Shown in pieces: positions 58,132-61,610 of a DNA stretch of 64,000 bases (position 1 is its first letter; the number at the start of each line of letters is the position of its first letter). The notes under the pieces are model-generated. The model searched no databases, was not told the origin of the DNA, and saw only the letters and a program-made list of their open reading frames with translations. Position numbers and translations under genes: made by a program. Origin of the DNA: Acinetobacter apis (GTDB taxonomy: Bacteria > Pseudomonadota > Gammaproteobacteria > Pseudomonadales > Moraxellaceae); assembly GCF_900197575.1 (NCBI RefSeq), contig NZ_FZLN01000001.1, forward strand, positions 372,001 through 436,000, given 5' to 3'.

Positions 58132-58764
58132 ATGTTGAAAGCAACCGATCAATTGCAAATTTTACAATCAAGTATTTATGCACATCCTGCGTTATATGAC
58201 ATATTGAAGTTATGTGCGACATTAGAACCAACATGTTATGTGGCTGCAGGAGCGATTCGAAATGTACTGTGGTCTGATTTGCATGGTCATTGCGAGCCAC
58301 TTACTGAAATTGATGTGATTTACTATGATGAATTTGAAACAGGACAACATCAAAAGCAGCATATTGAATCAATATTGAAACACGCATTGCCACAATATAC
58401 TTGGGATGTGGTGAATCAGGCTCAAGTTCATACATGGTATAAAACAGAGAGTGGACAATCTATCTTGCCATTAGGTTCTGTGTCACATGCCTTGTCATTG
58501 TGGCCAGAAACGGCAACTGCGATTGCTGTTCGTTGGATTGATGATCATCATTTGGGTGTTATTGCACCGTTTGGGTTAGATGATTTAATCAACTTGAAAT
58601 TACGTTGGAACACAAGACTTGTAAGTCATACAGTATTTAAACAACGAATCAATCAAAAGCATTTTTTACAGCGATGGCCGAAATTACAAGAAGTTGAGCC
58701 ATATCCTAGTAATCAGTTTGTAAGTGATCATGAAATGATTATTAGTATGAGTGAATCTCCATGA
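58132..58764 (+). CDS. Nucleotidyltransferase-fold protein (DUF925-like)
   Basis: 210 residues. Motif A-A-G-A-I-R-N-V-L-W-S-D-L-H-G and the acidic pair T-E-I-D-V-I-Y-Y-D fit the DUF925/nucleotidyltransferase family. The substrate is unknown. It overlaps the acetyltransferase gene by four bases (ATGA), so the two are co-translated. Confidence 0.75.
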   Translation: MLKATDQLQILQSSIYAHPALYDILKLCATLEPTCYVAAGAIRNVLWSDLHGHCEPLTEIDVIYYDEFETGQHQKQHIESILKHALPQYTWDVVNQAQVHTWYKTESGQSILPLGSVSHALSLWPETATAIAVRWIDDHHLGVIAPFGLDDLINLKLRWNTRLVSHTVFKQRINQKHFLQRWPKLQEVEPYPSNQFVSDHEMIISMSESP

Positions 58765-59300
58765 ACCAAAACAAACAGACCAAAGAGCCAACGAAGCTTG
58801 TTATTAGAGCTGCTAAATGTTCCGATATAGATGAGTTAATGAACGTTGAACAGTCAGCAAATCAAGCTTTTTTGGCTATTCCACATTTAGCGTGGCTTGC
58901 AGAAATAGACTTATTACCTGTGGAATATCATCAAAAGTTTATTGTGAATGATTATTCTGCAGTGGCAGTAATTGATGAACAAGTCGTTGGATTTATTTAT
59001 GCAATGCGTTATGAGGAAGATTTATATATTTTAGAGGTTGATGTGGACCGAGCGAAACAGCAGCAGGGCATTGGTCAACAATTATTTAAATACATGACTT
59101 CACTTGCGCAAAAAGATGGGTTTAAGCGTATTACATTAACCACCTTTACTGATGTTGCATGGAATGCTCCATTTTATAGAAAACTTGGCTTTGAAGTTAT
59201 GCCAGCACCATTGCCAGCATATTTAGTAGATAAAATTGATCGAGAAGTCAGTTTTGGTTTCGAGCGTGCAAGTCGTACTGCAATGTATTTTAATCTTTAG
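58761..59300 (+). CDS. GNAT acetyltransferase
   Basis: 179 residues. GNAT core with the acetyl-CoA loop Q-Q-Q-G-I-G-Q-Q-L and L-E-V-D-V-D strand, then F-Y-R-K-L-G-F. It is translated after the nucleotidyltransferase. The substrate is unknown. The 3' end precedes the sRNA region. Confidence 0.82.
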   Translation: MNQNKQTKEPTKLVIRAAKCSDIDELMNVEQSANQAFLAIPHLAWLAEIDLLPVEYHQKFIVNDYSAVAVIDEQVVGFIYAMRYEEDLYILEVDVDRAKQQQGIGQQLFKYMTSLAQKDGFKRITLTTFTDVAWNAPFYRKLGFEVMPAPLPAYLVDKIDREVSFGFERASRTAMYFNL

Positions 59301-59469
59301 AATGTAACTTCATTAAAGTGTCATTTAAGCTGTGTTATAAAGAAATACAGTCAAAAAATTTATTGAATGATTGGTTAAGTAACATTTTTAATTTTTCGTG
59401 CGATGTCTCGTACAGTAATTTTCGACATGACTGATACTCAAATATCAATAAATTGAATATATTAAAACC
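59301..59469. other. Upstream region of the GGA-hairpin RNA
   Basis: 169 A/T-rich bases after the acetyltransferase gene. No open frame. Expected to hold the RNA promoter; a weak inverted repeat ATGTC/GACAT (59403-59407 with 59424-59428) is the only structure seen. Confidence 0.35.
59458..59463 (+). promoter_or_regulatory. Possible -10 element of the GGA-hairpin RNA
   Basis: TATATT placed so that transcription would begin about 59470, at the foot of the first hairpin. No convincing -35 or GacA-type upstream palindrome was found. Confidence 0.25.
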
Positions 59470-59597
59470 ATAGAGAGCAGGAAGTTCTCAAGCATAAAAT
59501 AATGAGAATGAGCTTTACACCAGGATGTGCGGTCAAACAGGAGTATGACCTAACGATGTTCATAAGGCAGCTTCACAGGATGTGAGGCTGTTTTAAT
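59470..59597 (+). ncRNA. Candidate CsrA/RsmA-sequestering small RNA (CsrB/RsmZ-like)
   Basis: About 128 bases, no open frame. Four hairpins each present GGA in the loop: (1) 59473-59489, GAGAG/TTCTC around CAGGAAG; (2) 59518-59529, CAC/GTG around CAGGAT; (3) 59531-59550, GGTCA/TGACC around a ten-base loop with ACAGGAG; (4) 59568-59590, nine-base-pair stem CAGCTTCAC/GTGAGGCTG around AGGAT, followed by TTTTAATTT, making it also the terminator. CsrA binds GGA in hairpin loops, and repeated copies in a short RNA ending in such a terminator are the mark of CsrB/RsmY/RsmZ RNAs that titrate CsrA. The core of 4.5S RNA is absent. Not tested. Confidence 0.65.
59568..59597 (+). terminator. Terminator hairpin of the GGA-hairpin RNA
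   Basis: Nine base pairs, loop AGGAT, then TTTTAATTT. Confidence 0.75.
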
Positions 59598-59705: not shown

Positions 59706-61610
59706 ATGTATCAAGTGCTAGCGAGAAAATATCGTCCACGTAATTTCAAAGAACTTGTCGGTCAAAACCATGTGTCTAGAGCCTTGACCAGCGCTTTAGA
59801 GCGTGGACGTTTGCATCATGCATATTTGTTTACGGGTACGCGTGGGGTGGGCAAAACGACAATTGCTCGTATTTTGGCAAAGTGCTTAAATTGTGAAACA
59901 GGGGTAACATCTACACCATGTGAAGTGTGTAATACCTGTAAAGCAGTGAATGAAGGGCGCTTTATTGACTTAATTGAAATTGATGCAGCTTCTCGAACTC
60001 GTGTTGAAGATACACGCGAGCTTTTAGACAATGTACCGTATGCACCCACACAAGGTCGATTTAAAGTATATTTAATTGATGAAGTGCATATGCTGTCGAC
60101 ACACTCTTTTAATGCTTTGTTAAAAACTTTAGAAGAGCCGCCAGAACATGTGAAGTTTTTGTTTGCAACAACTGATCCACAAAAGCTACCGATTACTGTT
60201 GTATCACGGTGTTTACAGTTTACTTTACGTCCTTTAGATTTATCTGAAATTAGCGCACATTTAACGGATATTCTTCAACAAGAGCAAGTGACTTATGAGC
60301 CACAAGCCTTGTGGCAAATTGCTGAAGCTGCTCAAGGTTCACTTCGTGACTCATTGTCGTTAACGGATCAAGCGATTGCTTATGGTCAAGGTCAAATTCA
60401 CTACCAAGATGTGAAAGACATGTTGGGTTTAATTGACCGTTCAATTATTTATGATTTGATTTTAGCGATTCATCAGAATCAACAGCGCCGTGTTGCAGCC
60501 TTGTTATTACAATTTAGACAACAAGCTTTAGATGTTGCATTGGTGCTTGATCAAGTTATTTCTACTTTGCATGAATTGGCATTGATGCAGTATCTGCCTG
60601 ATTTAGCACTGCCTTATAGTGAAGAAATCAATCAGAAGATTCAGCAGCTTCGTCAGTTGCTTTTACCTGAAGATATTCAGTTGTATTATCAAATTGCCAG
60701 TAAAGGTCGTGCAGAGCTTTCATGGTCGGTTACGCAAGAGCAAGGCTTTGAAATGTGTATTTTAAGGCTGCTTGCGTTTAGACCTTTACAAGCCAATGAG
60801 CGTATTGTTTCATCTGAGCCATCTGAGCCATCTGAGCCATCTGAGCCATCTGAGCCATCTGAGCCATCTGAGCCATCTGAGCCATCTGAGCCATCTGAGC
60901 CATCTCAAGCTCAAATGCCATCATTGGTAGCAGCTGAAGATTCATCAGTAATTCATTTTGAATCAGATGTAGAGCATCCCTTGATTTCTGTTGATGTGCC
61001 ATCACAATCTATACATTATGAAGCAACTGAACATGATCGTGATATTTTTCCATTTTCCTTAGATATCGAGCATGACCAGCAAGCACCTGTTGCAGATCCC
61101 ACACCAGTTGAACAGACTATAGTTGAATCAAGCACAGTACATGAACAATCAGATTTGCTTCATGTCCAACAAACACACGATGATGTGCTTACACCACAGC
61201 AGATTTTGACGCTGCCTGAACAGCCTTTAACAGGTGAATGGACTGTTGAATCTTGGGAGTATTGGTTCCGTACCAGTGAGCTTTCACCTGCTGTCCAAGA
61301 ATTGGCACAATACGGTATCATGCGTGGTGAGATGAATGGCCGTTCTGTATTTCATGTGCCTGAAGATTATGAAAAACTGCTTGAAGAGCAACAGCATAAT
61401 CTTGAACAAGCATTGTTGGCGCGTTGGCCAGAAAATGCGTTTCAAGTACAGTATGGTGCAGTCGATGAAATTACACCATTTACCTTGCAACGTCAGCGTA
61501 AAGCGCGTGCTTACCAACGTGCAGAAACCATGCTGAAAGAGGAAACACTCGTTAAAGAGTTAGTGACACAATTTGATGGTACTTTACTCAATATCCAATT
61601 GAAACCTTAG
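59706..61610 (+). CDS. dnaX: DNA polymerase III tau/gamma subunit
   Basis: 634 residues. Walker A G-T-R-G-V-G-K-T-T near residue 45, four-Cys zinc module (C-L-N-C-E-T-G, C-E-V-C-N-T-C), D-E-V-H-M-L-S, and V-V-S-R-C. This is the clamp-loader ATPase that also binds the polymerase core through its C-terminal domain. AGAGGAG precedes ATG 59706. A ten-unit Ser-Glu-Pro repeat interrupts the linker near residues 370-399. I see no A-rich slippery site for a gamma frameshift product. Confidence 0.95.
   Translation: MYQVLARKYRPRNFKELVGQNHVSRALTSALERGRLHHAYLFTGTRGVGKTTIARILAKCLNCETGVTSTPCEVCNTCKAVNEGRFIDLIEIDAASRTRVEDTRELLDNVPYAPTQGRFKVYLIDEVHMLSTHSFNALLKTLEEPPEHVKFLFATTDPQKLPITVVSRCLQFTLRPLDLSEISAHLTDILQQEQVTYEPQALWQIAEAAQGSLRDSLSLTDQAIAYGQGQIHYQDVKDMLGLIDRSIIYDLILAIHQNQQRRVAALLLQFRQQALDVALVLDQVISTLHELALMQYLPDLALPYSEEINQKIQQLRQLLLPEDIQLYYQIASKGRAELSWSVTQEQGFEMCILRLLAFRPLQANERIVSSEPSEPSEPSEPSEPSEPSEPSEPSEPSEPSQAQMPSLVAAEDSSVIHFESDVEHPLISVDVPSQSIHYEATEHDRDIFPFSLDIEHDQQAPVADPTPVEQTIVESSTVHEQSDLLHVQQTHDDVLTPQQILTLPEQPLTGEWTVESWEYWFRTSELSPAVQELAQYGIMRGEMNGRSVFHVPEDYEKLLEEQQHNLEQALLARWPENAFQVQYGAVDEITPFTLQRQRKARAYQRAETMLKEETLVKELVTQFDGTLLNIQLKP
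60813..60902. repeat. Ten-copy 9-bp tandem repeat inside dnaX
   Basis: Unit TCTGAGCCA repeated ten times without variation (by hand count), encoding (Ser-Glu-Pro)10 in frame. Perfect copies suggest recent expansion or contraction by slippage; the frame is kept for any copy number. Confidence 0.95.

Follow-up and report, generated by a model that had tools for sequence, protein, structure and literature searches.

We examined a 64,000-nucleotide stretch of the Acinetobacter apis genome (contig NZ_FZLN01000001.1, positions 372,001 to 436,000; here, the window) and consider it very probable that it holds a small RNA gene of ∼127 nt, GacA activated, whose product would sequester CsrA through four GGA loops and which is one copy of a scattered, repeated Acinetobacter family that is also plasmid borne. 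We rate the function as one of a known kind. What sets the family apart is that it lies under all Rfam cut-offs, is multicopy in most of the genomes counted, and is carried by plasmids. The locus is intergenic and stands alone, with a GNAT acetyltransferase gene on one side and dnaX on the other (Table 1).

Table 1. Coordinates of the predicted RNA, its parts, and its neighbors in the window, with the plasmid copies that precede a toxin gene
Feature	Position	Strand	Remarks
GacA/UvrY-box-like palindrome CGTGCG-N6-CGTACA	59397..59414	+	10/12 positions; 54 bp before RNA model start; position as in other scored copies
Predicted -10 element TATATT	59458..59463	+	Read by eye; TATGAT-like hexamers at the equivalent place in other copies
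Predicted small RNA	59469..59595	+	Full-length match to covariance model R1, 105.9 bits
Hairpin 1, loop GGA 59480-59482	59473..59489	+	-7.3 kcal/mol alone; 100% of cells paired in 4 model pairs; both-side changes in 3/4 pairs
Hairpin 2, weak, 3 bp, loop GGA 59523-59525	59518..59529	+	95.7% of cells paired; both-side changes in 1/3 pairs
Hairpin 3, loop GGA 59540-59542	59531..59550	+	-7.6 kcal/mol alone; both-side changes in 3/7 pairs
Hairpin 4 plus T run, predicted intrinsic terminator, GGA triloop 59578-59580	59567..59594	+	-15.9 kcal/mol; both-side changes in 11/13 pairs
GNAT acetyltransferase gene (neighbor outside the system)	58761..59300	+	
dnaX (neighbor outside the system)	59706..61610	+	ATG start is our choice
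Plasmid copies before a RelE/Gp49-type toxin gene	L200:4829-5391, L201:2501-3334, L202, L205, L206, L361, L363-L365		

The initial annotation had described four consecutive hairpins, each with GGA in its loop and the last serving also as the terminator, and this was confirmed by a motif count and by folding the hairpins singly, with hairpin 2 being weak. Four CAGGA motifs occur within 130 nt on the plus strand (59468 to 59597; GGA at 59480, 59523, 59540, and 59578); no other 130-nt stretch of the window, scanned on both strands, held more than two, and none of 5,000 dinucleotide shuffles of the element contained four. Bare GGA clusters are common in the window, with up to seven in other 130-nt stretches. 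Hairpins 1, 3, and 4 were stable when folded alone, with GGA looped in each, and hairpin 2 (CAC/GUG) was marginal (-1.0 kcal/mol), with shuffled sequences doing equally well. The minimum-energy fold of the entire element (-39 kcal/mol; z, -3.4) recovered hairpins 2, 3, and 4 of the proposed architecture but not hairpin 1, which was replaced by longer-range pairing. Comparative data nevertheless support hairpin 1 (see below). A TTTT run follows hairpin 4. The hairpin 4 terminator was absent from the output of the consensus terminator scan, which listed the upstream palindrome described below as a terminator-like site; the promoter scan gave no site upstream of the RNA, its sole listed site being inside the RNA and at chance level.

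When 99 same-genus genomes were searched at the DNA level, 17 places in 15 genomes came up, and 14 of these, in 13 genomes, were genuine copies. Loci L013, L016, and L018 were dropped as AT-rich, and L051 to L053, AT-rich or terminator only, were not used as copies. CAGGA blocks 1 and 3 were invariant in the alignment of the 14 copies, and the sequence between the loops was less conserved. From these copies we built covariance model R1; the window copy was one of the 14. Of 175 same-genus genomes, 172 had an R1 match at an E value of ≤0.01 (the E values are rough) and three had none. By hand count, 26 listed same-genus genomes held 114 matches of at least 45 bits (median, 4 per genome; max, 14; min, 0), and 4 of the 26 had none at that score. 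Besides the copy in the window, the window genome has one other good copy, at G000:C3:34216-34341 (76.4 bits). An exact 23-base core pattern was found in at least 118 stretches of named genomes. Among the 80 stretches listed, the species included A. baylyi, A. calcoaceticus, A. nosocomialis, A. pittii, A. seifertii, A. junii, and A. lwoffii, and 15 of the 80 carried two to four core matches each. At one locus (L012:1496-1627) the RNA copy sits next to an rRNA operon, at the operon's 5S end. A subclass (L250 to L252, L254 to L256, L258, and L261) keeps the CAGGA loops on re-paired stems with a shorter spacer.

The R1 matches in three other genera (four genomes: L290, L298, L299, and L305) lack the upstream box and resemble bare terminators, and carriage outside the genus was rejected for them. 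Enterobacterales accounted for 21 records by count; the two among the matches listed both matched at the terminator end, over 29 to 38% of the query. Six matching records are named "Acinetobacter phage MD-2021a," and we claim no phage carriage from them. In one of these, L199 (CAKLQF020000013.1), we saw prp genes, a Vgr gene, and genes for housekeeping functions, and we therefore regard it as a contig of a bacterial chromosome deposited under a phage name. It contains four RNA copies in ∼4 kb.

The structure was evaluated in a second alignment (A2) of 74 R1 matches, 66 of them distinct rows, in which L051 and three other fragments were included. In this alignment, which was fitted to R1 and thus favors the three model helices (hairpin 2 lies outside the model), 98.8% of the pair cells of the 27-pair structure formed by the consensus helices and hairpin 2 were paired across the 66 distinct rows. 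Changes on both sides were found in 18 of the 27 pairs, none of 500 shuffles equaled the structure on any measure, and sliding the pair partners dropped pairing to 33 to 49%. Hairpin 2 was comparatively the weakest helix. The loop GGA was present in 68 of 74 rows for hairpin 1 and in 70 of 74 for each of hairpins 2, 3, and 4, four of the 74 rows being fragments or terminators only. Both the GGA loops and the stems drawn in the initial annotation are kept in relatives, with compensatory change in two-thirds of the pairs.

A palindrome, TGTA(A/C)G-N6-C(T/G)TACA, was found upstream at 10 or more of its 12 positions in all 62 copies scored. Its distance to the model start is 54 to 56 bp in 61 copies and 60 bp in one. 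R1 itself holds no upstream sequence. The 62 copies are the 74 rows minus 8 set aside beforehand (four fragments and four repeat loci), 3 with short upstreams, and 1 duplicate, and because many come from related species, they are not independent. As a control, single-base-shuffled upstreams reached 10 of 12 anywhere in 20 of 1,240 cases. The consensus was written after ∼12 upstream regions had been viewed and was fixed before the weaker-hit repeat and the plasmid copies. In that repeat, on 96 further and weaker R1 hits, a box of at least 9 of 12 positions stood at 50 to 62 bp in 34 of 36 hits of 80 to 120 bits, 21 of 23 of 60 to 80 bits, 17 of 20 of 45 to 60 bits, and 3 of 17 of 33 to 45 bits; at 10 of 12, the counts in the same order were 34, 20, 16, and 2. 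These frequencies by score band indicate that R1 hits down to ∼45 bits are mostly genuine. Of the 114 matches of at least 45 bits counted above, 79 were tested in this repeat; seven had no box in place, one of them because the DNA was masked, and degenerate RNA copies do exist in genomes (for instance, L273, L289, and L291). Of 17 genomes, 10 carried a pattern combining the box with CAGGA, two of the three genomes without R1 hits among them, and none matched the reversed control. The strict form of this pattern missed the window genome because its box is weak, among the two weakest of the 62.

For rsmY and rsmZ, the published GacA upstream activating sequence is TGTAAG-N6-CTTACA (PMC4950607, PMC4353343), and, judged by its letters, the family palindrome is this element. 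The GacA/UvrY activating sequence that belongs to the Csr/Rsm class thus appears to be present, in the window copy at only 10 of 12 positions.

The initial annotation had looked to the Rfam families CsrB, CsrC, and RsmX/Y/Z, and here no family reached its cut-off. RsmY (RF00195), the sole related family at an E value of ≤10 at the RNA, scored 13.6 bits in the window (E value, 0.6) against a curated cut-off of 57 bits; it scored 16.1 to 27.7 bits in five of seven related loci and was not listed in L003 and L012. CsrB, CsrC, RsmX, and RsmZ gave no gathering-score match in the window or five further loci and nothing at an E value of ≤10 at the RNA or the seven related loci. Like Pseudomonas RsmY, RsmX, and RsmZ, which are ∼120 nt long with several GGA loops, a terminator hairpin, and a GacA upstream activating sequence (PMC4950607, PMC4353343), the Acinetobacter RNAs show this layout, but they fall below the 57-bit RsmY cut-off in the window and in those five of seven loci. 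They differ further from the three Pseudomonas RNAs in that CAGGA usually also occupies the terminator loop, in their many dispersed copies, and in plasmid carriage.

That no well-described CsrB-like RNA is known at this place in this genus, as initially stated, holds insofar as the available text of the sources gives predictions only; such predictions do exist, however. RsmA-regulating small RNAs were predicted at two loci of Acinetobacter ADP1, ACIAD0018/0019 and ACIAD2750/2751 (PMC5568370), and RsmX, RsmY, and RsmZ are entered in brackets for A. baumannii in Table 1 of PMC7366521, citing Kulkarni 2006. We take the brackets to mean predicted. These RNAs share the genus and the predicted role and are probably members of the present family. 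For ADP1, two loci are listed, and the available text of these sources holds nothing on a conserved GacA box in Acinetobacter, on plasmids, or on copy number across the genus. Azotobacter vinelandii (RsmZ1-7 and RsmY1-2; PMC7366521) and Pseudoalteromonas (Pf1-3; PMC11882849) are likewise reported to have several sponge RNAs per genome. Unlike those sets, the Acinetobacter family is located partly on plasmids, and in the 26 listed genomes its R1 hits of 45 bits or more number 4 per genome at the median and 14 at the maximum.

The RNA lies on the same strand as dnaX and 110 bp upstream of its ATG, an arrangement that would suit a cis-acting leader or attenuator of dnaX. We consider this reading hardly credible and rejected it: the R1 search found no copy at any of 29 other dnaX loci (best other match, 22 bits, L327), the element is closed by a terminator hairpin of its own, and copies elsewhere stand in other contexts, plasmids included. 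The 30 loci searched were the closest 30 dnaX matches among 97 genomes with one. Since only the window's dnaX locus among these carries the RNA, the neighborhood is incidental, and the special link to dnaX implied by the initial placement is not supported. In Pseudomonas, the 4.5S (SRP) RNA precedes dnaX; identity with that RNA was discarded, as there was no such Rfam match in the window. Between the conserved parts of the window's dnaX lies a stretch of Ser-Glu-Pro repeats (∼60850 to 60950).

The predicted protein partners are encoded in the same genome. The window genome encodes one CsrA (G000:C5:847084-847233; 84 bits), with the LTRR and VHREEI motifs, and a GacA homologue (G000:C2:127405-128034). 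A GacA homologue of 261 to 274 bits was found in all 28 same-genus genomes examined, the window genome included, none of them reaching the 280 bits curated as the UvrY cut-off; the best GacA match in seven genomes of other genera ranged from 104 to 318 bits. GacA presence failed to separate genomes with R1 hits from those without. In A. baylyi, an effect of losing GacA/GacS needs CsrA, and the authors proposed sequestering RNAs, none of them named in the available text (PMC12455638); CsrA of this species affects competence and growth on aromatic compounds (PMC12442408). In A. baumannii, CsrA was reported to be essential on rich medium (PMC12802169).

The CsrB/Rsm-type reading of the initial annotation is upheld by conserved, covarying GGA stem-loops and by a GacA-like box at a near-fixed distance in every copy scored. 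Looped GGAs, an intergenic RNA with a predicted terminator, compensatory stem changes, and a CsrA in the same cell are the features by which the window RNA would be placed in the Csr/Rsm class. We regard this as a real family of structured RNAs that bear a GacA-type box and most likely sequester CsrA. GacA would bind the upstream box and the RNA would be transcribed, its four GGA hairpin loops would bind and sequester CsrA, and CsrA-repressed mRNAs would thereby be released. The loops might instead act as base-pairing seeds, since their GGA motifs could pair, and the RNA would then be a regulator of mRNAs with C/U-rich sites and no protein sponge; A. baumannii AbsR28 pairs with tssM through an AGGA-containing seed (PMC11796373). 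We find this improbable, because the layout is that of Csr/Rsm RNAs, with four equivalent CAGGA loops whose stems change, a GacA-type box, and CsrA as partner, and because the sequence between the loops is less conserved.

The window's own RNA gave no plasmid match as a query, and a copy from an A. lwoffii plasmid matched 405 records of the plasmid collection, 402 from Acinetobacter and 3 from Klebsiella (the latter by count alone, with none among the matches listed). At least one record (H47) is chromosome sized, and short matches are often terminator only; thus, the 320 records matched over at least 80% of the query are the better figure. No annotated feature was named under the match among the matches listed, the gene table being incomplete. 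We opened 24 plasmid records, including pAB1 of A. baumannii ATCC 17978, hand-picked and nonrandom from the best and spread rows, and the stretches examined in them contained 26 copies. All 26 have a box of 11 or 12 of 12 positions at 55 bp upstream, with R1 scores of 78 to 145 bits; GGA motifs number four or more in 24 copies and three in the other two, L206 and L361.

A toxin-antitoxin gene, annotated or recognized by Pfam, lies within ∼100 bp of 13 of the 26 plasmid copies, and in 9 of the 26 a RelE/Gp49-type toxin gene follows 65 to 77 bp downstream in the same direction (Table 1). The RNA may therefore travel in such modules, and on plasmids it looks as if RNA and toxin-antitoxin pair move as a unit. 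A gene of pAB1 (A1S_3469, L201:2686-3042) is annotated as diaminopimelate decarboxylase, yet it matches Pfam Gp49 (PF05973), which we take to be a toxin-type family, at 81 bits. XerC/D (pdif) sites, searched for by pattern, matched in 18 of 210 loci.

This proximity to toxin-antitoxin genes would also fit an ordinary chromosomal Rsm/Csr family whose plasmid copies are passengers that ride with neighboring modules (toxin-antitoxin or accessory) and leave the host unaffected. We hold this to be possible, if doubtful, as drifting passengers should lose both the box and the GGA motifs, and these are kept across diverged sequences in 26 of 26 and 24 of 26 copies, respectively. The proposal that plasmids carry working, GacA-inducible sponge RNAs that lower free CsrA and rewrite host behavior, with the chromosomal copies as a residue of gain and loss from a mobile pool, seems to us evenly balanced between right and wrong. 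Each plasmid copy would add GacA-dependent sponge dosage, and CsrA-controlled traits of the host might then shift when Gac signaling is on. As with RsmQ of pQBR103, a plasmid element would plug into the host's Gac-Rsm circuit; RsmQ is a CsrA-family protein, whereas the Acinetobacter plasmids are predicted to carry the opposing sponge RNA (PMC9928087). In the text available from open-license papers, we found no report of plasmid-borne Csr/Rsm sponge RNAs.

In the available literature text, CsrA-sequestering RNAs in Acinetobacter have so far only been predicted. The present analysis supplies a sequence, a structure, a promoter box, and a genus-wide inventory, which make the GacA-RNA-CsrA link directly testable. 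Because this predicted CsrA-sponge family is plasmid borne and likely switched on by GacA, Acinetobacter plasmids would have the means to tap the cell's own Gac-Csr circuit. If true, this would be plasmid-to-chromosome crosstalk that runs through RNA and mirrors the case of CsrA proteins encoded on plasmids. With these plasmid copies, it becomes conceivable that a global posttranscriptional regulator is altered by small mobile elements via RNA alone.
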